A DNA stretch of 64,000 nucleotides from positions 62,001-126,000 of the forward strand of contig JABMLH010000008.1 of assembly GCA_013205085.1 (NCBI GenBank). Reading direction: 5' to 3'. The translations under genes and the position numbers were made by a program. Source of the DNA: Microbacteriaceae bacterium VKM Ac-2854. Lineage in GTDB: Bacteria; Actinomycetota; Actinomycetes; Actinomycetales; Microbacteriaceae. Under the pieces are notes generated by a model, which saw nothing but the letters and a program-made list of their open reading frames with translations, ran no database searches and had not been told where the DNA came from. Shown one piece after another: positions 5,764 through 19,637 of the stretch; the stretch's first letter is position 1; the number at the start of each line of letters is the position of its first letter.

Positions 5764-7254
5764 GTGACCGAGAGCACCATGCCCGACACGCGGCCCGACG
5801 CCGCGGCCGAGTCCGCTCCGCCCGGACCCGACACCAAACTCGACCCGAAGAGCCGCCTCGTCATCAGCCTGCTGCTGGTGTCGGCGTTCGTCGTGATCCT
5901 CAACGAGACGATCATGAGCGTCGCGCTGCCCGACATCATGAACGACCTGAACATCGAGGCGCACGTCGGCCAGTGGCTCTCCACGGCTTTTATGCTGACG
6001 ATGGCCGTGGTGATCCCGATCACCGGCTTCCTGATTCAGCGCTTCCACACCCGCACGCTGTTCGCCGCGGCGATGTCGCTGTTCAGCATCGGCACCCTCG
6101 CGGCAGCGCTCGCGCCCGACTTCTCGCTGCTGCTCGCCGCCCGCGTCGTACAGGCCAGCGGCACGGCGATCATGATGCCGCTACTGATGACCACCGTGAT
6201 GACCCTGGTTCCGCCGTCGGCGCGTGGCCGGATGATGGGCAACATCTCCATCGTGATCTCCGTCGCCCCGGCGATCGGTCCGACCATCTCCGGCATCATC
6301 CTGAACTTCGCCACGTGGCGTTGGATGTTCTGGATCGTGCTGCCGATCGCCGTCGGCGCTCTCATCCTCGGCCTGCGCAAGGTCGAGAACGTCACCGAGC
6401 CGCGCACCATGCCGATCGACGTGCTGTCCGTCATCCTCTCGGTGTTCGGATTCGGCGGCCTGGTCTACGGTCTGAGCACCGTCGGTGAGGGCTCGGCCGC
6501 GGCCATCGCTCCGTGGATCCCGTTCGTCGTCGGCGGCCTCGGCCTGGCCGCCTTCATCCTTCGCCAGCTCTCGCTGCAGAGGAGCGATCGTGCGCTGCTG
6601 GATCTGCGCACCTTCCGCTCCGGCAACTTCACGATCACCATCGTGATGATGGCGGTCAGCATGATGGCGCTGTTCGGCACGGTCATCCTGATCCCGCTGT
6701 ACACCCAGAACGTGCTCGGCCTCGCGCCGCTGACCACGGGCCTGCTGCTGCTGCCGGGCGGCCTGATCATGGGTCTGCTCGCTCCGTTCGTGGGTCGGCT
6801 CTACGACCGCTCGGGCCCGCGGGTGCTGCTGGTGCCGGGATCCATCGTGGTCGCCGGTGCGCTGTGGTCGCTGACGCTGATGAACGAGAACACCGAGCCG
6901 TGGATGATCCTCGCCGCGCACGTGTCGCTCAGCATCGGCCTGGCGCTGGTGTTCACGCCGCTGTTCACGGCCGGGCTGGGCTCGGTGCAGCCGCGGTTCT
7001 ATTCGCACGGCAGCGCCATCATCGGCACGATCCAGCAATTGGGCGGCGCCGCGGGAACGGCGCTCTTCGTCACCGTGATGACGGCGCAGACGATCGCGCT
7101 GCAGGCGCAGGGCGACTCCGTCGTGACGGCGACCGCGGGCGGCATCCACTCCGCGTTCGTCTACGGAGCTTCCATCGCGACCGCGGCGATCGTCGCCGCG
7201 TTCTTCGTCAAGAAGCCCGCCGAGTCCGACGAGCCGCTGCCGGTCGGGCACTGA
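5764..7254 (+). CDS. MFS drug-efflux transporter, DHA2 (14-helix) family
   Basis: A 496-aa integral membrane protein with about 14 hydrophobic helices, as in the EmrB/QacA branch of proton-driven multidrug exporters. The N-terminal helix motif NETIMSVALPDIMNDL and the helix 2-3 region VGQWLSTAFMLTMAVVIPIT are typical of DHA2 members. The hydrophilic N-terminus (about 35 residues) is followed directly by helix 1. The GTG start follows an ACAGGAGA ribosome binding site. It stands alone between the NAD operon and a convergent GNAT gene. The substrate cannot be read from the sequence. Confidence 0.88.
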   Translation: MTESTMPDTRPDAAAESAPPGPDTKLDPKSRLVISLLLVSAFVVILNETIMSVALPDIMNDLNIEAHVGQWLSTAFMLTMAVVIPITGFLIQRFHTRTLFAAAMSLFSIGTLAAALAPDFSLLLAARVVQASGTAIMMPLLMTTVMTLVPPSARGRMMGNISIVISVAPAIGPTISGIILNFATWRWMFWIVLPIAVGALILGLRKVENVTEPRTMPIDVLSVILSVFGFGGLVYGLSTVGEGSAAAIAPWIPFVVGGLGLAAFILRQLSLQRSDRALLDLRTFRSGNFTITIVMMAVSMMALFGTVILIPLYTQNVLGLAPLTTGLLLLPGGLIMGLLAPFVGRLYDRSGPRVLLVPGSIVVAGALWSLTLMNENTEPWMILAAHVSLSIGLALVFTPLFTAGLGSVQPRFYSHGSAIIGTIQQLGGAAGTALFVTVMTAQTIALQAQGDSVVTATAGGIHSAFVYGASIATAAIVAAFFVKKPAESDEPLPVGH

Positions 7255-7265
7255 CGCAGGCCGCT

Positions 7266-7343
7266 GGTTGAGCCTGACGAGCTCAGCTGGATGAGCCTGC
7301 CGGTACCGATCCCACAGCAGGAACGGGCTCGGCAGGCTCAACC
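7266..7343. repeat. Inverted repeat of the GGTTGAGCCTGCC family at a convergent junction
   Basis: GGTTGAGCCTG (7266-7276) pairs with CAGGCTCAACC (7333-7343), and a second internal copy GAGCCTGCCG (7293-7302) pairs with CGGCAGGCTC (7330-7339). The element sits between the stops of two convergent genes and may work as a bidirectional terminator. The same sequence family forms a 50-bp palindrome at 32417-32466, so it is a dispersed repeat. Confidence 0.7.
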
Positions 7344-7380
7344 GCGACGAGCAACGACGTCCTCGTCGCCTCGGCGTCGA

Positions 7381-7827
7381 TCAGTACGGGAGCGCACGCC
7401 ACCATGCGACCTCGCCATCGAGGCGCCCGGTGGCACGGAAGTGCTCGACCTGAGCCGAGCCGGCGAGGGCGTCGGCCAGCTCGAGCGTGGTCGATCGCTT
7501 GAACCCCAGCTTCTGCCAGAACGGCCCGGAGCGACGGCTGAACAACCAAGCCTCACGCGCTCCACGGGCAGCGGCCTCACGAAGCGCCCAGACGGCGAGC
7601 GCCGTCCCCTGCCCGCTTCGGCGGAACGCCGGGTCGACGGCAACACTGCGGATCAGGGCGGCGCGGCCATCGGCCGAGAGTTCGAAGCCCGAGCTTGCGA
7701 TGATGCGGCCTCCGGAGCGCTGCAGCCACAACGCGACCTCTGGTGCGTCGAGGGCGCTGACGGTGAGATCCGCGGCCCGGAGGAACTCCTCCAGTTCGAC
7801 GGCGGTCTCGGTCGTCACGCGCTCCAT
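7381..7827 (-). CDS. GNAT family N-acetyltransferase
   Basis: A 148-aa protein with the acetyl-CoA binding pattern IRSVAVDPAFRRSGQGTAL (motif A) followed by FWQKLGFKR near the C-terminus. It resembles the small GNATs often annotated as ArsN-like arsenic-resistance acetyltransferases, but no other ars gene is nearby, so I do not assign that role. The ATG lies 12 bp after the stop of the coiled-coil gene upstream, so the two are probably co-transcribed. The substrate is unknown. Confidence 0.8.
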   Translation of the reverse strand: MERVTTETAVELEEFLRAADLTVSALDAPEVALWLQRSGGRIIASSGFELSADGRAALIRSVAVDPAFRRSGQGTALAVWALREAAARGAREAWLFSRRSGPFWQKLGFKRSTTLELADALAGSAQVEHFRATGRLDGEVAWWRALPY

Positions 7828-7839
7828 CCGAACGTGCTG

Positions 7840-8187
7840 CTACGCCGTGGCCTCGTCGAGCTTGTCGACGACGATCTCCGTCGCGGCCTTGCGACGGGTG
7901 AAGCGCTCCGCCTCCGCCTCCGCCAGCTTCTTCGCGAGCTTGTCGCGTTCGGCCTTGAGCGAGGCGACGGTGGGCGCATCCAGGCGCGGGTCGATCACCT
8001 CGCTGAACGGACTCTCCGCTCCGGTCTTCGCGTAGACGACGGCGGCGTAGTGCGAAGCGGTGTTGCGCACCTTCGCCTTCGCCGCCTGCACTTTGCTCTT
8101 GCGGGCCTTCGTGTCGGAGACGACGTCGGCGTGCTTCTCCAGGGCCTTGACGAGATCGTGCAGGGCGGAGTCGATCTTCTTGGTCAT
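7840..8187 (-). CDS. Small lysine/alanine-rich coiled-coil protein, unknown function
   Basis: About 115 aa, highly charged and helical, with heptad-like Leu/Ala spacing in SLKAERDKLAKKLAEAEAER and a basic middle (KARKSKVQAAKAKVR). No signal peptide or membrane segment is visible. I do not recognise a named family. The start at 8187 (MTKKIDSALHDL) gives a sensible N-terminus; an in-frame start 30 bp upstream (8217) is possible. It precedes the GNAT gene by 12 bp on the same strand. Confidence 0.6.
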   Translation of the reverse strand: MTKKIDSALHDLVKALEKHADVVSDTKARKSKVQAAKAKVRNTASHYAAVVYAKTGAESPFSEVIDPRLDAPTVASLKAERDKLAKKLAEAEAERFTRRKAATEIVVDKLDEATA

Positions 8188-8363
8188 CCGGTCATTCTGG
8201 ACCACGAAGCCGCACAACGGCCAGTGGATCCTTCCTCAAATCGGCGTCGAGTTCAATCCTCACGATTGGGGACACCCGCGCGCCGTTCACCTGCGGTCCA
8301 CCTGACCTGGGTTCAATAGGGGCCGCGCTGTGTATCGGCACGGCCCGGAACGGAGTACCGCAC

Positions 8364-11300
8364 GTGATCGACCCCGCCGCCGAGACGTCCGCGAGTGGCC
8401 CGTCCGGCACCGGAATCCTCGACCGCTCCGAGTTCGCCGCGACGCCACGCACCCTCATCGACATCCTGCGAGCGACGACGCAGGCGCATCCGGATGCCTC
8501 TGCCCTCGAGGACGCCGCCGGCGCGCTGAGCTACCGCGAGCTGATGGCGCGCGTGATCGCCGCCGCCGCAGAGCTCACCCTCGCCGGCGTGCAGCGCGGC
8601 GACAAGGTCGGGGTGCGGATGCCCAGCGGCTCGCGCGAGCTGTACGTCTCGATCCTCGCCATCCTCGCCGCCGGCGCCGCCTACGTTCCGGTCGACGCCG
8701 ACGACCCGGATGAGCGCGCCGAGCTGGTGTTCGGCGAGGCGAAGGTGCGCGGAGTGATCGTCGGCTCGGGCCGCTACGTCGCGAATGAGAGCGAGAGCGA
8801 GACCCGCCTCTTCACCGGTAAGGTGCCGCACGCCAGCACCGCGTCCATCCCCATCGTCGGCGCGCCCCGCCTCGAGGACGACGCCTGGATCATCTTCACC
8901 TCCGGCTCCACCGGCACCCCGAAGGGCGTCGCGGTCTCGCACCGCTCCGCCGCCGCCTTCGTCGATGCCGAGGCCGGGCTCTTCCTGCAGCGCGAGCCGA
9001 TCGGTCCGGGCGATCGGGTGCTCGCCGGGCTCTCGGTCGCCTTCGACGCGTCCTGCGAGGAGATGTGGCTCGCCTGGCGCAACGGCGCCTGTCTGGTGCC
9101 GGCCCCGCGTTCGCTGGTGCGCAGCGGCATGGACCTCGGCCCCTGGCTGACCACCCACGGCATCACCATCGTCTCGACCGTGCCCACGCTCGCCGCGCTC
9201 TGGCCGGCCGAGTCGCTGGAGAACGTGCGGATGCTGATCTTCGGTGGCGAGGCCTGCCCGCCCGAACTCGGCGAGCGCCTCGCGGTCGACGGCCGTGAGG
9301 TGTGGAACACCTACGGCCCCACCGAGGCGACCGTCGTCGCCTGCGCCGCGCCGCTCGGAGACGGTGGCCCGGTGCGGATCGGTCTGCCGCTGGATGGCTG
9401 GATCCTCGCCGTCGTCGACGCCGCCGGCAATCCTGTCGGGGAAGGCGAGGTCGGCGAGCTGATCATCGGCGGGGTCGGCCTCGCGCGCTATCTCGACCCG
9501 GCGAAGGATGCCGAGAAGTACGCCCCGCACGAGCAGCTCGGCTGGGCGCGGGCCTACCGCAGCGGCGACCTGGTGCGCTTCGAGGCCGAGGGTCTGATCT
9601 TCCAGGGCCGCGCCGACGACCAAGTGAAGGTCGGCGGGCGCCGGATCGAACTCGGTGAGATCGAGTCGGCGCTGCAGGCGCTGCCGGGCGTCTCCGGAGC
9701 TGCGGCCGCCGTCCGCACCACCGGCGCGGGCAACCAGGTGCTCGTCGGCTACCTCGCCGTCGTCGACCAGGCTGCTTTCGACCGTGACGGCGCCCTCGAG
9801 AGCCTGCGCGCCGAGCTGCCCGCCGCGCTCGTGCCGCTGCTCGCGGTGGTGGACGAGTTACCCACCCGAACCTCCGGCAAGGTCGACCGCGCCGCCCTGC
9901 CGTGGCCGCTACCCGGAGCCGCCGGCGACGCCGACGTCGACCTCGACCCGGAGCTGCGACCGCTGGCCGAGGCGTGGCAGTCGGTGCTCGGCGTGACGGT
10001 GACCGGCGAGGACGCCAACTTCTTCGACCTCGGCGGCGGCTCGCTCGCCGCCGCGCAGCTGGTCGCGCGGATCCGCGAGATCGACCCGGAGTTCACCGTG
10101 GCCGACATCTACGCGCATCCGCGGCTCGGCGCGATGGCCGACGCCGTCGCCGCCCGCACCGTCGAGGCCGCCCCCGTCTCCGAACACCGCATCCGTGAGA
10201 CGCCGCGCCGGATGCAGCTGCTGCAGACCCTGCTCGGCGCGCCGCTGATGATCCTGGCCGGCGTGCGCTGGCTCGTGATCGCGCTGACCGCGAGCGCGAT
10301 CCTGCGCCTGCTGCCCGGTTTCGATTTCCTGCCCACCGTGCCGCTGTGGCTGCTGATCGTCGGCCTGCTCGTCTTCGTCACCCCGTTCGGGCGGATGGCG
10401 ATCGCGGTCGTCGGCGCGCGGCTCCTGCTCGGTGGCCTGCGCCCCGGCGACTACCCGCGCGGCGGCTCCGTGCACCTGCGGCTCTGGCTCGCCGAGCAGA
10501 TCGGCCACCAGGTCGGGGCGGTCAGCCTCGCCGGTGCCCCCTGGATCTCGTACTACGCCCGAGCGCTCGGCGCGCGGATCGCGGAGGACGTCGATCTGCA
10601 TTCACTGCCGCCGATCACCGGCATGCTCACCATCGGCCGCGGCGCCTCGATCGAGCCGGAGGTGGACCTCTCCGGCTACTGGATCGACGGCGACCTCGTC
10701 CGCGTCGGGGCGGTGCGGATCGGCGCCGGCAGCACCGTCGGCGCGCGCAGCACCCTGCTCCCCGGCGCCCGGATCGGCAAGCGCGCCGAGATCGAGCCCG
10801 GCTCGGCCGTGTTCGGTCGGGTGCCCTCCGGTCAGCGCTGGGCCGGCTCCCCCGCCGTCCGCGTCGGTAAGGCGCGCGACTGGTGGCCGAAGGAGCGCCC
10901 GGCTCGCGGCACCCGCTGGGTCTGGGCCTACGGCGTCTCGGCCGTCGGGCTGTCGGCGCTGCCGATCGTGGCGTTCGCACTCGGCGGCCTGGTCGTCGTC
11001 GCGGCGATGCGGGATGCGCCGAGCTTCGCGGACGCCGCCTGGCGGGCCTTCGCCGCCGTTGTGCCCGGCGTGCTGATCGCGGGCGTGGTGTTGGCCGGCT
11101 CGATCGTGTTGACCGTGCGGGCGCTCGGCCTCGGCGTGACGGAGGGGGTGCACGCCGTACGCGGCCGGGTCGGCTGGCAGCTGTGGACGACGGAACGCAT
11201 CCTCGACCTCGCGCGCACCCTGCTCTTCCCGCTGTACGCCGGGCTGTTCACCCCGGTCTGGTTGCGGCTGCTCGGCGCCCGCGTCGGCAGCAACGTCGAG

Positions 11301-12329
11301 GCCTCGACCGTGCTGCTGCTGCCGGCGATGACCACGATCCGCGACGGCGCCTTCCTCGCCGACGACACGCTGGTCGCCGGCTACGACCTCGGCGGCGGCT
11401 GGATGCGGGTGGCACGCGCCGAGATCGGCGAGCGCGCCTTCCTGGGCAACTCGGGCATGGCCGCGGCCGGCCACATCGTGCCGACGGGCGGACTCGTCGC
11501 CGTCCTCTCCGCCGCCCCGAAGAAGTCGAAGGCGGGCTCCAGCTGGCTCGGCTCGCCGCCCGTACGCCTGCGCCGTACCGTCGCCGACAGCGACGAGAGC
11601 CGCACCTTCCAGCCGCCCACCCGCCTCCGTATCGCGCGGATGCTCTGGGAGATCGGCCGGATCGTGCCGGTCATCGTCACGTGCGCCCTGGGCCTCGCCG
11701 TGCTGCTGGGGCTGCTCGCCATCACCGCGAGCTGGGGCGTGCTCGCCGCCGCCCTGCTCAGCGGCGTCGTGATGCTGATCGCGGGCGCCGTCGCCGCCGT
11801 GATCTCGACGGCCGCGAAGTGGGCGCTGATCCAGCGGATCCGCGCGGACGAGCATCCGCTCTGGTCCACCTTCGTCTGGCGCAGCGAGGTCGCCGACACC
11901 TTCACCGAGATGCTCGCCGCCCCGTGGTTCGCGCACGCCGCGGCCGGCACCCCGGCACTGGTGTGGTGGCTGCGCAGCCTCGGAGCCACGATCGGCAAGG
12001 GCGTCTGGTGCGACAGCTACTGGCTGCCCGAGGCCGATCTGGTGACTCTGGGCGACGGATCGACGGTGAACCGGGGCTGCGTTGTGCAGACGCACCTGTT
12101 CCATGATCGAATCATGAGCATGGATTCCGTCACGCTCGACCCCGGCGCAACGCTCGGCCCGCACAGCGTCATTCTTCCGGCGGCCCGGATCGGTGCGCAC
12201 GGCACCGTCGGCCCCGCCTCGCTGGTGATGCGCGGCGAGCTGGTGCCCCTGGGCAGCCGCTGGAGCGGCAATCCCATCGGGCCGTGGCGCGAGGTCACGA
12301 CCGCCGACTACCACGCGCCGGTCGCTTAG
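8364..12329 (+). CDS. pls: Pls/PosA-type single-module NRPS (poly(amino acid) synthetase)
   Basis: A 1321-aa protein nearly the size of Streptomyces epsilon-poly-L-lysine synthetase Pls. Order: adenylation domain (about 20-510; IIFTSGSTGTPKG, NTYGPTEAT, YRSGDLVRF, PTRTSGKVDR), carrier domain (about 530-600; FFDLGGGSLAAAQL, Ser560 for phosphopantetheine), then six hydrophobic helices in three pairs (near 625-690, 865-955, 1095-1155) separating three soluble domains rich in hexapeptide beta-helix repeats (IGAGSTVGARSTLLPGARIG). There is no ordinary condensation or thioesterase domain. Specificity residues aligned to GrsA read D228 A229 E232 S271 I292 G294 T316 V324 V325 K506, close to known lysine codes. 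It probably makes a membrane-exported isopeptide homopolymer of lysine or a related diamino acid. The product is inferred. Confidence 0.88.
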   Translation: MIDPAAETSASGPSGTGILDRSEFAATPRTLIDILRATTQAHPDASALEDAAGALSYRELMARVIAAAAELTLAGVQRGDKVGVRMPSGSRELYVSILAILAAGAAYVPVDADDPDERAELVFGEAKVRGVIVGSGRYVANESESETRLFTGKVPHASTASIPIVGAPRLEDDAWIIFTSGSTGTPKGVAVSHRSAAAFVDAEAGLFLQREPIGPGDRVLAGLSVAFDASCEEMWLAWRNGACLVPAPRSLVRSGMDLGPWLTTHGITIVSTVPTLAALWPAESLENVRMLIFGGEACPPELGERLAVDGREVWNTYGPTEATVVACAAPLGDGGPVRIGLPLDGWILAVVDAAGNPVGEGEVGELIIGGVGLARYLDPAKDAEKYAPHEQLGWARAYRSGDLVRFEAEGLIFQGRADDQVKVGGRRIELGEIESALQALPGVSGAAAAVRTTGAGNQVLVGYLAVVDQAAFDRDGALESLRAELPAALVPLLAVVDELPTRTSGKVDRAALPWPLPGAAGDADVDLDPELRPLAEAWQSVLGVTVTGEDANFFDLGGGSLAAAQLVARIREIDPEFTVADIYAHPRLGAMADAVAARTVEAAPVSEHRIRETPRRMQLLQTLLGAPLMILAGVRWLVIALTASAILRLLPGFDFLPTVPLWLLIVGLLVFVTPFGRMAIAVVGARLLLGGLRPGDYPRGGSVHLRLWLAEQIGHQVGAVSLAGAPWISYYARALGARIAEDVDLHSLPPITGMLTIGRGASIEPEVDLSGYWIDGDLVRVGAVRIGAGSTVGARSTLLPGARIGKRAEIEPGSAVFGRVPSGQRWAGSPAVRVGKARDWWPKERPARGTRWVWAYGVSAVGLSALPIVAFALGGLVVVAAMRDAPSFADAAWRAFAAVVPGVLIAGVVLAGSIVLTVRALGLGVTEGVHAVRGRVGWQLWTTERILDLARTLLFPLYAGLFTPVWLRLLGARVGSNVEASTVLLLPAMTTIRDGAFLADDTLVAGYDLGGGWMRVARAEIGERAFLGNSGMAAAGHIVPTGGLVAVLSAAPKKSKAGSSWLGSPPVRLRRTVADSDESRTFQPPTRLRIARMLWEIGRIVPVIVTCALGLAVLLGLLAITASWGVLAAALLSGVVMLIAGAVAAVISTAAKWALIQRIRADEHPLWSTFVWRSEVADTFTEMLAAPWFAHAAAGTPALVWWLRSLGATIGKGVWCDSYWLPEADLVTLGDGSTVNRGCVVQTHLFHDRIMSMDSVTLDPGATLGPHSVILPAARIGAHGTVGPASLVMRGELVPLGSRWSGNPIGPWREVTTADYHAPVA

Positions 12330-13655
12330 GTGGCGAGCCAGGAGACCGTCGGCGCCGAATCCTCTGGAGACCCGTACCTGCCGACCATCGGCAACGGCGG
12401 CTACCGCGTGCAGCAGTACGACCTCGAACTCGACTACCGCGTCGCGAGCAACCGACTCGAGGGCGAGGCGCACCTCTACGCGACGAGCACGCAGGTGCTG
12501 CGTCGCTTCAGCCTCGACCTCTCCGGCCTGCGCGTGTCGAAGGTGCGGGTGAACGGGCAGAAGGGCACCAAATTCCGCCAGAGCGCGCACAAGCTGATCA
12601 TCACCCCCGCGGAGCCGATCCTCGCCGGCGCCACCTTCACCGTCGCGGTGAACTACGCCGGCTCCCCGGCCCCGCGCGGCACGTACTGGGGCGAGCTGGG
12701 CTGGGAGGAGCTGGAGGACGGCGTACTCGTCGCCTCGCAGCCCAACGGCTCCTCGACCTGGTACCCCTGCAACGACTCCCCCGCCGACAAGGCGCGCTAC
12801 CGGATCCGCGTCACCACCGAGGAGCTGTACACCGTCGTCTGCAACGGCGTGCTGATCGAGCACACCCGACGATCCGGGCGGGGCACCTGGCTGTTCGAGC
12901 AGCCGCAGCCCACCGCGAGCTACCTCACGACGGTGCAGATCGGCCGCTACACCCGGTCCGTGCTCCCCGCCGGTGGGATCGACGGCGTGATCGCGTATCC
13001 GATCGTCGCCGAGGCGCGTGTGAAGCAGGACTTCGCGGTCATCGACGCGATGATGCCGTTCTTCGAGGAGCGATTCGGGCCGTATCCGTTCGACCGCTAC
13101 ACGATCGTCGTCACCGCCGACGAGCTCGAGATCCCGCTCGAGGCGCAGGGCATGGCGATCTTCGGCGTGAACCACGCCGACGGCCGCGGCGGATCGGAAC
13201 GGCTCATCGCCCACGAGCTGGCGCACCAGTGGTTCGGCAACAGCGTCGGCATCCCCGAGTGGCGGCACATCTGGCTGAACGAGGGCTTCGCCTGCTACGC
13301 CGAGTGGTTGTGGTCGGAGCAGTCGGGAGGACCGAGCGCCGCCACGCTGGCGCACCGGCACCACCTGGCGCTGCGGTTCAAGGGCAAGGACCTGCTGCTC
13401 AGCGATCCCGGACCCGCCGACATGTTCGACGACCGCGTCTACAAGCGCGGCGCCATCACCGTGCACGCCGTGCGCGTCGCCCTGGGAGACTCCGCTTTCT
13501 TCGCGATGCTGCGCGAGTGGACCCGCAAGCGCCAGTACCGCACCGGCACCACCGAGGAGTTCCGCGCGCACGCGCAGTCGTTCGCGGCAGTCGACCTCAC
13601 GGAGCTCTTCGAGCGCTGGCTCGACTCGGTGTCACTGCCGCCGATCCCGAGCTGA
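12330..13655 (+). CDS. M1 family zinc aminopeptidase, short form, linked to pls
   Basis: The 441-aa product has the gluzincin site HELAHQ (295-299) followed 18 residues later by the third ligand in NEGFACYAEW, and an N-terminal beta-sandwich domain. The usual GAMEN exopeptidase loop is replaced by a variant (EAQGMAIFG). It lacks the large C-terminal helical domain of PepN. The GTG start directly follows the pls stop codon, so translation is probably coupled. In Streptomyces epsilon-polylysine producers a zinc aminopeptidase degrades the polymer, so a trimming or self-protection role is plausible. A general peptidase role is the alternative. No signal peptide is seen. Confidence 0.88.
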   Translation: MASQETVGAESSGDPYLPTIGNGGYRVQQYDLELDYRVASNRLEGEAHLYATSTQVLRRFSLDLSGLRVSKVRVNGQKGTKFRQSAHKLIITPAEPILAGATFTVAVNYAGSPAPRGTYWGELGWEELEDGVLVASQPNGSSTWYPCNDSPADKARYRIRVTTEELYTVVCNGVLIEHTRRSGRGTWLFEQPQPTASYLTTVQIGRYTRSVLPAGGIDGVIAYPIVAEARVKQDFAVIDAMMPFFEERFGPYPFDRYTIVVTADELEIPLEAQGMAIFGVNHADGRGGSERLIAHELAHQWFGNSVGIPEWRHIWLNEGFACYAEWLWSEQSGGPSAATLAHRHHLALRFKGKDLLLSDPGPADMFDDRVYKRGAITVHAVRVALGDSAFFAMLREWTRKRQYRTGTTEEFRAHAQSFAAVDLTELFERWLDSVSLPPIPS

Positions 13656-13680
13656 GTGCGGCTGCGGGGCCGATGCCCTG

Positions 13681-13782
13681 CCGGAAATGCAGGATGAGCG
13701 GCGAAGATCGCGCTCTCATCCGCATGCGCCGCCCTCATTCCCGTCCTGACCCTGCATTTCCGGATCGGCCCTGCATTTCCGG
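13681..13782. repeat. 13-bp inverted repeat with duplicated right arm
   Basis: CCGGAAATGCAGG (13681-13693) has two perfect complementary copies, CCTGCATTTCCGG at 13751-13763 and again at 13770-13782. The left arm can pair with either right arm, giving two alternative large hairpins. It lies between the convergent M1 peptidase and phosphopantetheinyl transferase genes and may terminate both. Confidence 0.75.
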
Positions 13783-13815
13783 AGCGCCTATACGGGAGGC
13801 GCGCGAGCCCGGCCT

Positions 13816-14538
13816 CTAGCCGCCGATCGCCGCCGAGAGGTCGTGTTCACGGCGCCAGCCGAGGGTGACCCCGGAGGTCGCGTCCGAGCCGAGCGCGATG
13901 CTCACCTGAAGCGACGGATGCAGCTTCGGCTCGGCGAGGCGGAACCGGCGCTCGCCCTCCGGCGCGTCGATCCTGGCCTGCGCCCGGCCGTCCCGTTCGT
14001 GGATGCGTACCCGCCGCGGATCGACCGTGAGCCCGCGGCCGTCCGCTTTCAACGCGGCCTCGATCCGGGTCCAGTGCTGCAGGGGATCCGCCGGGCGCCG
14101 CGAATCGCCGAACGGAACGCCCGCGACCTCGACGATCGCCCCGGCGCGATCCGCGGATCCGGCGACCGGCTCGACGTCCACGCCCACGACGCCGTCCCAA
14201 CTCACCGCCGCGACGACGGCGGCGGCGCAGTGCGCGATACTCAGCGACAACCCGTCGATCGCACCGTTCGGCCCGCAGAGCAGGGGCCTCCCGTGCGGGC
14301 CGCCGCATTCGGCGCAGACCGCACTGACGGTGATCGCACTCGCGGTCAGCCCGGTCAGTTCGGCGGCGAGGATCCGCGCCAGCACTCGGCCCACCACGAA
14401 GCGCTCGGCGAGCTGCGGATTCGCGGTGGCGGCGAACCGGGCCCGCTCGACCGGGCTCAGCACCGGCAGCATCTCGACCGGATCGAAGCGCAATTCATCC
14501 AGCGCGAGCCAGCGCACGTGCACTCCGTCGTCACGCAT
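13816..14538 (-). CDS. Sfp-type 4'-phosphopantetheinyl transferase
   Basis: It transfers phosphopantetheine from CoA to the serine of carrier domains. The 240-aa product has the Mg-binding motif GVDVEPV and the downstream signature WTRIEAALKADGRGL (canonical W-x-x-KEA-x-x-K), here with Arg-Ile in place of Lys-Glu spacing. It converges on the pls-M1 gene pair across a palindromic junction and is the obvious activator of the Pls carrier domain (Ser560). The next gene upstream on the same strand is ppk2, 27 bp away. Confidence 0.88.
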   Translation of the reverse strand: MRDDGVHVRWLALDELRFDPVEMLPVLSPVERARFAATANPQLAERFVVGRVLARILAAELTGLTASAITVSAVCAECGGPHGRPLLCGPNGAIDGLSLSIAHCAAAVVAAVSWDGVVGVDVEPVAGSADRAGAIVEVAGVPFGDSRRPADPLQHWTRIEAALKADGRGLTVDPRRVRIHERDGRAQARIDAPEGERRFRLAEPKLHPSLQVSIALGSDATSGVTLGWRREHDLSAAIGG

Positions 14539-14565: not shown

Positions 14566-15543
14566 CTACCGTACCGGGTGCTCGCCGCGCTCGAAGACGT
14601 CGGCCGCCGAGCCGACGATGTTCGCGTCGACCAGCCCGGCTCCGAACGGACCGACGATCTCCTCGTCGCGATCGTCGTAGTCGTAGCGGCTGAGCACGAA
14701 GCGCATCGCCTCGAGTCGAGCACGCTTCTTGTCGTTGCTCTTGACCACGGTCCACGGCGCGTCGGCGGTGTCGGTGGCGTCGAACATCGCTTCTTTCGCG
14801 GCCGTGTAGTCGCCCCACTTGTCCAGACTCGCGAGGTCCATCGGCGAGAGCTTCCACTGCCGCACCGGGTCGACGAGGCGGATCGCGAAGCGGGTCTTCT
14901 GCTCCTCCGCCGAGACCGAGAACCAGAGCTTGATCAGGTCGATACCGTCGCCGGCGAGCATGCTCTCGAACAGCGGCGCCTGCCGGATGAACTCCCGGTA
15001 CTGCTCCTCCGTGCAGAAGCCCATCACGCGTTCCACGCCGGCGCGGTTGTACCAGGATCTGTCGAAGAGCACGATCTCGCCCGCCGCCGGCAGGTGCTGC
15101 ACGTAGCGCTGGAAGTACCACTGCGTCGACTCGCGCTCGCTCGGCTTCTCCAACGCCACAACGCGCGCGCCGCGGGGATTGAGGTGCTCGGTGAAGCGCT
15201 TGATGGTGCCGCCCTTACCGGCAGCGTCGCGGCCCTCGAAGACGATCACCAGGCGGCGGCCGTTCTTCTTCACCCAGTTCTGCAGCTTCAGCAGCTCGAT
15301 CTGCAGCAGGCGCTTACCCGCGTCGTACTCGTCACGGTCCATCCGCTCGTCGTACGGGTAGCCCTCGCGCCAGGTGTCCACCGCGGAGCCGTCGCGGCGC
15401 AGCAGCACGGGATCGTCGTCGTCGACGTCGAGCACGGAGAGGCCATCGAGGTTCAACGGGCGACCGCCCGAGAGCACCTCGTCGAGGTCGAGCGGACGAG
15501 ACGGATCGAGGGGGCGGGAGAGGTCGATCGGAGGCGTGGTCAC
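14566..15543 (-). CDS. ppk2: Polyphosphate kinase 2 (PPK2)
   Basis: It phosphorylates nucleotides with polyphosphate as donor. The 325-aa product has Walker A FEGRDAAGKGGTIKRF, the lid/substrate block EKPSERESTQWYFQRYV and Walker B FDRSWYNRAGVERVMGF, all typical of class I PPK2. I chose GTG 15543 because the residues before it in the open frame are low-complexity and unconserved. The N-terminus from 15543 (TTPPIDLSRPLDPSRPLDLD) is itself a short repeat-rich leader of about 45 residues. The gene stands upstream of the phosphopantetheinyl transferase. Confidence 0.93.
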   Translation of the reverse strand: MTTPPIDLSRPLDPSRPLDLDEVLSGGRPLNLDGLSVLDVDDDDPVLLRRDGSAVDTWREGYPYDERMDRDEYDAGKRLLQIELLKLQNWVKKNGRRLVIVFEGRDAAGKGGTIKRFTEHLNPRGARVVALEKPSERESTQWYFQRYVQHLPAAGEIVLFDRSWYNRAGVERVMGFCTEEQYREFIRQAPLFESMLAGDGIDLIKLWFSVSAEEQKTRFAIRLVDPVRQWKLSPMDLASLDKWGDYTAAKEAMFDATDTADAPWTVVKSNDKKRARLEAMRFVLSRYDYDDRDEEIVGPFGAGLVDANIVGSAADVFERGEHPVR

Positions 15544-15663
15544 GGGCCGAGGGTACGGCGACGAGGCATCCGCTCGGTGAACGGACGGTGACGCGGGATC
15601 AGTGCCCGCCCCCTGTCCCGAACGGACGCGGGGTGGCAGCCTGGGTCGATCGGGAGGAGACCC

Positions 15664-16233
15664 ATGAGCATCATCGAGACCGTGCCGGAAGCCGAGGCCA
15701 CCGGAGCCGTCGCCGAGATCTACGCGGGCGACGTGCACGATCAGGGCTTCGTCGCCGCGCACACCAAGGCGCTGGCGCTGAACCCCGAGGTCTACCTCGC
15801 GTGGGAGCAGCTGATCACCGCGATCGCCGGGCCGATGGACAAGCGCCGCTACGAGCTGATCACTCTCGCCGCGGCGAGAGGCGCGCGCTCGCAGCACTGC
15901 CGCCTCGCGCATGCCCGCAAGTCGCTGCGCTATTTCGACGAGGCGCAGTTGACCCGCATCGCCGCCGACTACCGTGACGCCGGGCTGACCGAGGCCGAGG
16001 TCGAGATGATGGCGTTCGCCGAGAGGATCAGCGCGGACGCGGCTTCGATGACGGATGCCGACAGCCTGCGGCTGCGAGCCGTCGGCTTCTCCGATCGCGA
16101 GATCGTGGACATCACGCTGTGCGCCGCCGCCCGCAACTTCTACAGCCGCGCCGTGCAGGCGCTCGCCATCGAGGTCGAGACACCGGTCGAGATCGGCCCC
16201 GACCTCCGATCGGCGCTCGTTCGCGGGCTCTGA
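15664..16233 (+). CDS. Carboxymuconolactone decarboxylase (AhpD-like) family protein
   Basis: A 189-aa helical protein of the AhpD/CMD superfamily with the core E-x11-S-Q-H-C-x3-H in ELITLAAARGARSQHC followed by RLAH. AhpD peroxidases carry C-x-x-C here; this protein has S-x-x-C, so the resolving-cysteine chemistry is altered and the activity is uncertain. The ATG follows a GGGAGGAG ribosome binding site. It is read divergently from ppk2 and stands alone. The substrate is unknown. Confidence 0.82.
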   Translation: MSIIETVPEAEATGAVAEIYAGDVHDQGFVAAHTKALALNPEVYLAWEQLITAIAGPMDKRRYELITLAAARGARSQHCRLAHARKSLRYFDEAQLTRIAADYRDAGLTEAEVEMMAFAERISADAASMTDADSLRLRAVGFSDREIVDITLCAAARNFYSRAVQALAIEVETPVEIGPDLRSALVRGL

Positions 16234-17543: not shown

Positions 17544-18192
17544 CCAGACGTCGCGGCGGCCGGAGGTATCGCGCCGGTACCAGGCGTGCGGCGGCGAGCA
17601 TCGCCGTCACCGCGAGCATCGCCAGCGCACCGGTGTGCATCAGCACCGCCATCGCCAGCATCGCGGGCGCGCAGGAGCCGACGCAGTACGCGCCGTGCTG
17701 CAGGCCGAAGCGGATGTCCGCGCGGGTCGCGCCCATCCCGCTCGCAGGCAGAGGCACCGTCCGATGGCAGCCGCCCCGCATCCGGCGATGCCACGGCGTG
17801 AAGGGCCAGAGGACGGCGATGACCACTACGGCGGCGAGGGCGGAGCGGATGGTTCCGGCGAGACTCAGAGCCACCGCACCGAACACCAGCCACACCGTGA
17901 GGTAGCCGAGGAGGAACTCCGCCATCGCGCGGCCGCGGCGCCGCCGAAGGCTGTTGCGACCGACGTGTCGCACCGCGGGCAGCGCGATGGGCACCATCAT
18001 CGCGACACACATCAGGCTCCAGTGCGGCAGACCGACGAGCACGTCGGCGGTCGGAGTGGCGCCGTGCGCGTGCGTCGCAACCGGCAGCGCCCCGTGGGAT
18101 GCCGGCCCGGCGAGCAGGAGCGGCCACGCGGCTGCGGCCACCAGGGCCGCCGGCCACTCCGGATGCACCCGGAGCGCGCGCCGCAGGCTCAT
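17434..18192 (-). CDS. DUF2182 predicted metal-binding membrane protein
   Basis: The 252-aa product has about six hydrophobic segments and the DUF2182 features PHWSLMCVAMMVPIALPAVR, a Cys/His pair (GGCHR) and LQHGAYCVGSCAPAMLAM. Cys, His and Met residues in the helices suggest metal handling. The arginine- and proline-rich tail (about 45 residues) is encoded antisense to the DUF2277 gene and may be unconserved. Its ATG shares one base with the stop of the tyrosinase gene (TGATG), so the two are coupled. I infer a copper-delivery or membrane-partner role for the tyrosinase. This has not been shown. Confidence 0.78.
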   Translation of the reverse strand: MSLRRALRVHPEWPAALVAAAAWPLLLAGPASHGALPVATHAHGATPTADVLVGLPHWSLMCVAMMVPIALPAVRHVGRNSLRRRRGRAMAEFLLGYLTVWLVFGAVALSLAGTIRSALAAVVVIAVLWPFTPWHRRMRGGCHRTVPLPASGMGATRADIRFGLQHGAYCVGSCAPAMLAMAVLMHTGALAMLAVTAMLAAARLVPARYLRPPRRLATRWRSAWRSAREPSPPPRRDPSAARWSPDLRADAG

Positions 18193-19637
18193 CAGCCGAA
18201 GGTGACGCTGACCCGGCCGATGCGGACGGGCGGGGTCCGCGACTCGGCTTCGTCCGCCTCGTCGGACTCACTGAGTCCGTCGTCGGGTGGGAGCAGCCCG
18301 AGTGGGCGGAACGAGACCTCGACCGACTCCATCGTTCGGGCGCCGACCACATCGGTCACATCGAACGTGCGCCGCATCCCGTGCGGTCCGTCGCCGTGAC
18401 TCTCGTCGTTCACGTGCTCGATGCCGAAGAACGACACCGTGCCCAGATAGTGCTCGGCATCGCCCGCACCGATACGGAGGTAGACCTCGTAGCCGACCGA
18501 CGGATTACGCTCCGCCTCGATGTCCTCGAGATTGACGTAGATCCGAGCGGGCGCCGCATCGGCCTCGCCACGGCTCACCGGAGCCTCCACCGTCACCGCC
18601 ACGGTCGCCGCGTCTCCGCTCAGCTCGACGGGGTCGGTGGAGGAGCCGGCCAGTTCGGGTTCGGTGTCGCCGGCCGGAGTCATCTCGTCGTTCTCCATCG
18701 GGGTGTCGTTGGTCGGCGGCAGGCTGTCGTAGCGGTAGCCGAGCTGGCTGCCGATGTGGAGTACATCCGCGGGGGTCATCGTCACGCGGACCCCGGTGTC
18801 GTTGTGCAGTACGAAGGACGCACCGGTCCAGGCCGCGTCCGTCGGATTGGAGCGACCGGCCTGGGTGAGCCACTGCTCCCAGAGCCGGTCGATGTTGCAG
18901 TGGTGCAACCAGAAGATCGGGTCGCTCGCGGCGCGGTTCGGGTCGCCCATCCAGCCACCGAGGAGCGAGTGCACGATGTTGTGCGGCGTGAACTCCAGGT
19001 CTCCCGCGGCGCCGAAGAAGTGCTGCGGTGTGGTCTTGCCGCCGCCGAATCCCGGCGCCGGTGGCGGTGTGAAGCCGGTGTCGTTCAGGGCGGCCGACGG
19101 ATCCACGGCCGCGGCCGGCAGCTGACCGCCCGCGTTCGCGCTCGGCTGACGTTGCGCCACGAAGAGCGGATTCGCAACGTCGGCGTCTGCAGGGTCGTCC
19201 TTCGGCAGGAAGCGCTGACGGAACTCGGGCGGCAGGGCGCGCTGACCGGGGTCGGCGTAGTTCCAGTACGGCAGAGCCCAATCGGCGGGGCCGCCCTGCG
19301 CCAGCACTTCGGCGCGCACGATCCGCTCGAAGTGGTGCAGGTACATCCGATGCCAGGGCAGGAAGAACCAGCTGCCGTGCTGGCACTGGTTCCAGTCGGG
19401 ATCCGGGGCGGGTGCGTTCGTGCCGTGCACGGCGCTGAGGTAGGTCCAACCGCGCGGATCGGTGTCGGGGCGCTGCTGCAGCCCCGCGATCGCGCGGGCA
19501 TAGGCGAGCACGATCGGATGCCACGGTCCGGCCAAGGTGCCGACGTCGCGACGGATCAGCAGCTCGGGTTCGGGGTTCGGTTCGGGTTCGGGGTTCTCGC
19601 CGTATTCGCCGTACTCGCCGTATTCGCTTTGCACCAT
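18192..19637 (-). CDS. Tyrosinase / polyphenol oxidase-like type 3 copper protein
   Basis: It oxidises phenols or catechols with a binuclear copper centre. Copper A histidines lie in SAVHG and WHRMYLHHFER; copper B histidines in FTPHNIVHS and DPIFWLHHCNIDRLWEQW. The catalytic domain covers about residues 30-285. A C-terminal beta-rich region (about 300-460), like the middle domain of plant polyphenol oxidases, may shield the active site. The N-terminus carries GEYGEYGEYG and acidic Pro-Glu repeats made by short DNA repeats. No signal peptide is seen. It is coupled to the downstream DUF2182 gene. No MelC1-type caddie gene is present. The 481-aa size is larger than Streptomyces MelC2. Confidence 0.9.
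   Translation of the reverse strand: MVQSEYGEYGEYGENPEPEPNPEPELLIRRDVGTLAGPWHPIVLAYARAIAGLQQRPDTDPRGWTYLSAVHGTNAPAPDPDWNQCQHGSWFFLPWHRMYLHHFERIVRAEVLAQGGPADWALPYWNYADPGQRALPPEFRQRFLPKDDPADADVANPLFVAQRQPSANAGGQLPAAAVDPSAALNDTGFTPPPAPGFGGGKTTPQHFFGAAGDLEFTPHNIVHSLLGGWMGDPNRAASDPIFWLHHCNIDRLWEQWLTQAGRSNPTDAAWTGASFVLHNDTGVRVTMTPADVLHIGSQLGYRYDSLPPTNDTPMENDEMTPAGDTEPELAGSSTDPVELSGDAATVAVTVEAPVSRGEADAAPARIYVNLEDIEAERNPSVGYEVYLRIGAGDAEHYLGTVSFFGIEHVNDESHGDGPHGMRRTFDVTDVVGARTMESVEVSFRPLGLLPPDDGLSESDEADEAESRTPPVRIGRVSVTFG

Follow-up and report, generated by a model that had tools for sequence, protein, structure and literature searches.

A Microbacteriaceae pls locus that probably makes epsilon-poly-L-lysine, with a coupled M1 peptidase and a neighboring phosphopantetheinyl transferase

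The best explanation of the locus as a whole, which comprises a Pls-type synthetase, an M1 peptidase and an Sfp-type transferase, is that it makes the antimicrobial polymer epsilon-poly-L-lysine, a reading to which we assign a probability of roughly 90%. The locus lies in a stretch of 64,000 nucleotides (hereafter, the window) and contains the following features:

8364..12329, + strand: pls, putative epsilon-poly-L-lysine synthetase of 1321 aa, organized as A-T-C1-C2-C3 with three membrane helix pairs (TIGR02353; best PDB match 7WEW)
8400..9917, + strand: adenylation (A) domain of Pls, residues ~13–518, code DAESIGTVVK (65% identity to 7WEW)
9963..10148, + strand: carrier (thiolation, T) domain of Pls, residues 534–595 (PF00550, E 2.2e-12)
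10176..12326, + strand: membrane polymerization domain of Pls, residues 605–1321, three helix pairs and left-handed beta-helix repeats C1–C3 (AlphaFold2 model; hhalign)
12087..12110, + strand: C3 motif QTHLFHDR with H1244, residues 1242–1249, proposed catalytic loop (motif in 23/23 sequences; H1244 in 101/101)
12330..13655, + strand: two-domain M1 zinc aminopeptidase, PldII-like, 441 aa, without a visible export signal (Peptidase_M1)
13816..14538, − strand: Sfp-type 4'-phosphopantetheinyl transferase, 240 aa, convergent (PF01648, weak)

In the proposed mechanism, L-lysine would be activated with ATP by the A domain and loaded onto the carrier domain, which requires a phosphopantetheine arm that the neighboring Sfp-type transferase could supply. 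The membrane domain, with its three fused acyltransferase-like repeats and three helix pairs, would link the lysine carboxyl to the next epsilon-amine and pass the growing chain out of the cell, and the M1 peptidase would remove lysines from the polymer. The product, its isopeptide linkage and the activity of PldII are established in other species, according to the papers cited here. From the genes described above we infer that the source strain is probably a producer, that the transferase serves Pls and, by analogy with PldII, that the M1 peptidase would act on epsilon-polylysine.

The three ORFs on which an earlier note had based its proposal (8364–12329 on the plus strand, 1321 aa; 12330–13655 on the plus strand, 441 aa; 13816–14538 on the minus strand, 240 aa) were all recovered, as was the A-T-membrane architecture that it had given to the first. 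Residues 620–1305 of the window Pls score 713.6 bits against TIGR02353, the Pls/PosA family model (cut-off 423.1), the amino-acid adenylation domain model gives 338.4 bits (cut-off 317.4), and Pfam identifies a carrier domain and hexapeptide repeats. The window Pls is a complete Pls/PosA-family protein, with A and T domains followed by a membrane domain of ~700 residues that exceeds the curated cut-off. Its closest PDB match (E 1.5e-189) is 7WEW, deposited as epsilon-poly-L-lysine synthase, whose source species we take to be Streptomyces albulus; the two A domains share 65% identity over 492 columns. A route to the polymer without a classical condensation domain, also put forward earlier, is well supported by the sequence, and the known Pls works in that way. 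No Rfam family matched anywhere in the window at gathering thresholds, and a sigma-70-type scan of positions 7200–8450 returned neither a promoter-like nor a terminator-like site.

The likely monomer is L-lysine, as judged from the specificity code. The ten code positions, which were located by motif and alignment, are occupied in the window Pls by D228, A229, E232, S271, I292, G294, T316, V324, V325 and K506 (DAESIGTVVK), the same residues that the earlier note had read. Identical extraction from 7WEW gave DAESIGTVVK, equal to the window at 10/10 positions, and from an Acinetobacter baumannii locus, which served as a control of the method, DMEHNGTVSK, which matches the PosA code given in PMC10522769 (in the part cited). 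DAESIGTVVK was present in 126/126 close Pls relatives besides the window (100 + 18 + 8), namely in all 80 named loci and all 20 family-level genome regions, in 18/20 wider regions (in the remaining two, the synthetase lacks a same-frame A domain) and in 8 plasmid-borne loci; the named loci are the best 80 of at least 594 confirmed and were chosen by identity (≥60%), so uniformity among them is expected for that clade and does not amount to a family-wide sample. The plasmid loci were drawn from 17 of 60 matching plasmid records, in which nine distant synthetases had other codes: DMEHNGTVSK, DMEHNGTVTK, DFECLSAVTK (2), DLEDIGTVVK (2), DLEDIGSVVK and DFEYLGTVTK (2), their types being assigned from code and neighbors and not from product. 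The identity of the pocket to that of 7WEW and of all close relatives, with the nine distant ones differing, makes lysine the likely monomer. This comparison with characterized synthetases had been suggested earlier as a check, and it separates the window from PosA: DMEHNGTVSK, the PosA-type pocket with Met as its second residue, is absent from the window Pls.

The synthetase might instead use ornithine, diaminobutyrate or beta-lysine and yield a different cationic homopolymer, which we regard as very improbable. Polymers of this sort are indeed made by the family, and every code that was read, lysine types included, has Asp at position 1 and Glu at position 3. However, position 2 of the window code is Ala, as in lysine enzymes, whereas this position is Met in ornithine types and Phe in PDAB/PDAP types, and neither a diaminobutyrate transaminase nor an aspartate kinase is among the identified window neighbors, unlike at the L205 locus, which has them. 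Of the products that had been offered earlier, epsilon-polylysine therefore stands, while 'a close diamino-acid homopolymer' becomes unlikely because all ten pocket positions equal those of a characterized lysine enzyme. The case for lysine is thereby firmer than the earlier note had put it.

The polymerizing domain of the putative polylysine synthetase was modeled with AlphaFold2 (residues 605–1321), and the best model reached a pLDDT of 86.0 (69–74 for the other four models) and a pTM of 0.87. It consists of helix pairs and beta-rich repeats and resembles the model of PosA, for which the cited part of PMC10522769 describes the same elements. The window Pls thus has the family trait of three membrane helix pairs around three left-handed beta-helix repeats. 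Repeats C1, C2 and C3 are mutually homologous (hhalign profiles, probability 97–99%); the VIA-align ranges fall mostly in C1, and absent matches elsewhere are uninformative. The C3 motif QTH[LV][FY]xDR occurs in 23/23 sequences with a C domain. H1244 is invariant over 20 diverse sequences, including those with lysine-, ornithine- and diaminobutyrate-type codes, and is conserved in 101/101 sequences (the window and 100 relatives), across which profile alignment places Tyr1007 as its counterpart in C2 (Tyr in 101/101) and a variable residue in C1 (Y 57, H 22, W 18, T 3), the named loci in all three counts being the best 80 of at least 594. In the window Pls both counterparts are Tyr (Y772 in C1 and Y1007 in C2), which, together with the invariance of H1244, suggests that the C3 repeat is the sole condensation site; the His at the C1 position in 22 of the 101 sequences disfavors a strictly single site. 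Hexapeptide acyltransferases employ a histidine in a similar manner, and by analogy H1244 is proposed to be the base that activates the epsilon-amine, with model confidence low at positions 643–646 of the model, which form part of the H1244 loop. To our knowledge, the condensation chemistry of Pls is unsolved, and H1244 offers a single mutable residue in the polymerase.

Two further observations concern this domain. Residue 1247 is His in 14 lysine-code enzymes (QTH[LV]FHDR) and Glu in all nine enzymes of other types (QTHL[FY]EDR), so it could mark the substrate class. Loci L185 (G255:C5) and L190 (G223:C1) contain a second TIGR02353 synthetase of 919 and 860 residues, respectively, made up of the membrane domain without a same-frame adenylation domain.

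The peptidase gene is closely tied to pls. Its product matches Peptidase_M1 (96.3 bits) and the corresponding N-terminal domain (52.6 bits), and its GTG start directly abuts the TAG stop of pls; that it begins at this stop codon had been pointed out earlier. The His/Glu/His of HExxH and the downstream Glu are invariant in 101/101 sequences (the window and 100 relatives, with named loci limited to the best 80 of at least 594), and the same holds for Glu271, placed by hand alignment at the position of the GAMEN-motif glutamate. Mapping of the reported PldII active-site Glu281 onto window Glu271 failed, the corresponding Glu of a Streptomyces copy being residue 297. An M1 gene lies downstream of pls on the same strand in 80/80 named loci (the best 80 of at least 594) and 20/20 family regions, and the Pls and M1 matches are at most 160 bases apart in 75 of these 80 and in all 20, and 604–2206 bases apart in the remaining five. 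Conservation of homologous clusters together with the peptidase, a point raised earlier, was thus found in 100/100 close relatives. M1 is also downstream of all 18 A-domain-containing synthetases in the wider set. Among the plasmid loci, it adjoins pls in 5/8 with a lysine code and 0/9 with other codes (flanks of 4–5 kb); the lysine-code plasmid pls genes at L213, L215 and L217 have no M1 within 4–5 kb, so M1 is not obligatory for pls. Pairwise distances of Pls and M1 are correlated (r 0.87 over 101 pairs, the named loci again the best 80 of at least 594; at most 0.07 in 999 shuffles), much of which is expected from shared descent. By its uniform pocket (127 sequences, named loci from the best 80 of at least 594) and its frequent peptidase partner, the lysine clade is readily recognized.

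On a different account, M1 is a general aminopeptidase that merely accompanies pls and is no depolymerase. M1 enzymes are broad, and three of the eight lysine-code plasmid pls genes have no M1. We nevertheless consider this account unlikely, as M1 is downstream in 118/118 A-domain-containing genome-collection loci (named loci: best 80 of at least 594), and all nine genomes without a complete pls lack a close M1 copy, with best matches of 27–31% (G012 and G013 are among these nine, with pls interrupted by a contig end). Moreover, the Streptomyces PldII degrades epsilon-polylysine; the cited part of PMC9223678 describes it, in S. albulus, as an aminopeptidase translationally coupled to pls. The source genome contains a second M1 (36% identity), set aside as a candidate, which lies among genes of sugar-metabolism type and away from any synthetase. 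Two plasmid contexts may be recorded here. In L217, a Mycobacterium intracellulare plasmid without an M1 within 4 kb of pls, the lysine-code pls has a large NRPS gene as well as PE/PPE/WXG100 genes in its vicinity, and in the Rhodococcus plasmids L209 and L210 (DFEYLGTVTK) genes for a BPL-N protein and a heparan-alpha-glucosaminide N-acetyltransferase-type protein lie downstream, a gene context for which we know of no product.

The site of action of the peptidase, which we favor as a partner of Pls acting on its polymer, was judged by the hydropathy of up to 60 residues preceding the M1 domain, with start codons assumed. An export-like segment was found in only 2 of 122 M1 relatives, Streptomyces L202 and L204, whose segments have a twin-arginine look and best 15-residue means of 1.94 and 1.36. 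By the same measure the other 120 have no export signal, none exceeding 1.17 (three were shorter than scoring requires), and the window M1, in which 15 residues precede the aligned domain start, has no hydrophobic export segment. In L202, the M1 gene is 1404 bases long and overlaps pls by 4 bases, which corresponds to the published S. albulus layout. PldII is described as located outside the membrane in the cited part of PMC9223678. Because no export signal is visible by hydropathy, the window M1 may act in the cytosol, and extracellular trimming is less likely. The earlier note's view of the peptidase as a partner of Pls is borne out (100/100 relatives). The window M1 shares only ~40% identity with the two Streptomyces copies that have export signals, so its activity on epsilon-polylysine is presumed. 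Tentatively, and with somewhat less than even odds, we propose that in most actinobacteria the Pls-coupled peptidase is cytosolic and removes or recycles intracellular epsilon-polylysine, shielding the producer's own nucleic acids and membranes, that PldII of S. albulus, the exported enzyme from which the present view derives, is a derived exception, and that the polymerizing domain is a fused pseudo-trimer with H1244 of the third repeat at its one working site. The absence of a visible export signal raises the question of how the peptidase protects the cell.

The convergent Sfp-type transferase that had been reported at 13816–14538 on the minus strand was found there, with a weak match to PF01648 (ACPS; 26.5 bits versus a cut-off of 25) and a HetI-type match of 31.7 bits, far under the cut-off of 370, and it has relatives beside pls in the family. 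By tblastn, a convergent transferase lies within 4 kb of M1 in 25/80 named loci (the best 80 of at least 594) and 19/20 family regions. A profile of 46 sequences, built partly from the loci searched so that its counts lean upward, finds a transferase anywhere in the locus in 21/25 named Microbacteriaceae loci and 15/55 other named loci (together the best 80 of at least 594), 19/20 family regions and 3/20 wider regions. The transferase is a common Microbacteriaceae neighbor of pls and not a universal one. It may serve more than Pls, because the source genome also has an NRPS/PKS locus with carrier domains and two further ACPS-superfamily matches, and it is not exclusive to Pls, since the gene is retained in a genome of the genus without pls (G001). 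A tblastn match at L177 13636–14202 was dropped as a transferase, having no Pfam match. In the Rhizobium and Sphingomonas plasmids L207 and L211 (DLEDIGTVVK and DMEHNGTVTK), a phosphopantetheinyl transferase gene is directly downstream of the synthetase gene on the same strand.

In the search of relatives, the family cut-off was passed by 38 of 99 genomes, namely the source genome, 11/14 of its genus, 15/45 of other genera of the family and 11/39 elsewhere in the order. Of the three genus members that fell short of it, G012 and G013 have pls truncated at a contig end, with its N-terminal part present, and are for this reason not counted as absences. In a sample of the phylum, 15/296 genomes matched at E ≤1e-60, and 14 of these exceeded the cut-off. 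The surroundings of the locus in the window are as follows:

5764..7254, + strand: DHA2-type MFS exporter, upstream of pls (conserved genus neighbor)
7381–7827, − strand: GNAT acetyltransferase between MFS and pls
7840–8217, − strand: 125-residue protein between MFS and pls (no Pfam match)
14566–15912, − strand: PPK2 polyphosphate kinase, adjoining the transferase (kept in 10/11 other genus loci)

The system could be larger, with the upstream MFS protein contributing export and the downstream PPK2 counter-ion or ATP supply, a possibility that we consider quite unlikely. MFS is near pls in 11/11 and PPK2 in 10/11 of the other genus loci with a complete pls, and PPK2 (73–81% identity) is also near pls at L109 and L132, outside the genus. 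However, in G001 (L176) the MFS and transferase genes are 56 bases apart with neither pls nor M1 between them, an arrangement which indicates that pls and M1 come and go as a unit, leaving MFS and the transferase in place, so MFS is probably outside the system. In addition, no MFS neighbor above 60% identity was found outside the genus, and conservation of an order that includes nadC and iscS suggests ordinary synteny. MFS and PPK2 were therefore rejected as the most likely composition, PPK2 being mostly a genus-level neighbor. The 125-residue protein has relatives near pls at L036, L044, L115 and L131, and no relative of the GNAT protein was found in a search of 106 loci. Positions 18192–19637 (− strand) of the window encode a tyrosinase with a C-terminal DUF7868.

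The smaller system, i.e. synthetase and peptidase with a transferase nearby, is known and common in Microbacteriaceae. The earlier note had called such a product undescribed for the family, a claim that fails at the level of gene clusters because Microbacteriaceae clusters have already been described and the peptidase is downstream in 100/100 relatives (named loci: best 80 of at least 594). In the parts cited, PMC12067966 gives epsilon-polylysine clusters of Agrococcus and Microbacterium, with Leifsonia displayed beside them, PMC10628120 also contains Microbacteriaceae clusters, and PMC8117764 lists Microbacterium among Pls carriers. Pls genes of Microbacterium, Arthrobacter and other coryneforms are described, in part of this literature, as having pockets identical or highly similar to that of Pls. 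For Corynebacterium variabile, the relevant part of PMC8117764 states that its Pls, with highly similar pockets, makes epsilon-polylysine in Streptomyces coelicolor and that C. variabile itself gave none in culture. In the literature searched, we found no polymer isolated from a Microbacteriaceae strain. With this locus, a further genus of the Microbacteriaceae joins the probable producers of epsilon-polylysine, and the choice of monomer narrows to lysine.

Among known systems, the two-domain M1 structures 6A8Z and 6IFF, presumably of the Deinococcus radiodurans M1 zinc metalloprotease, are of similar size and are the best PDB matches of the window M1, but are distant in sequence. PosA, the delta-poly-L-ornithine synthetase (PMC10522769, in the part cited), shares the TIGR02353 family, whereas the A. 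baumannii locus with the PosA code differs in that code, in its A and C domains (36% and 29% identity) and in having no M1 within 4 kb. The pls-pldII pair of S. albulus is similar in domain order, in the 7WEW code, and in an M1 gene that follows immediately at tight spacing; it differs in the 65% identity of the A domain and in PldII, which lies outside the membrane according to the cited part of PMC9223678, the window M1 being without the N-terminal export signal of L202 and L204. C. variabile (PMC8117764) has the same kind of synthetase with the same peptidase partner, and the Microbacteriaceae clusters of PMC12067966 and PMC10628120 have the same kind of synthetase in the same bacterial family; by the descriptions cited, no essential difference from these was found. 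Set beside them, the genus of the window has the convergent transferase at a fixed place.
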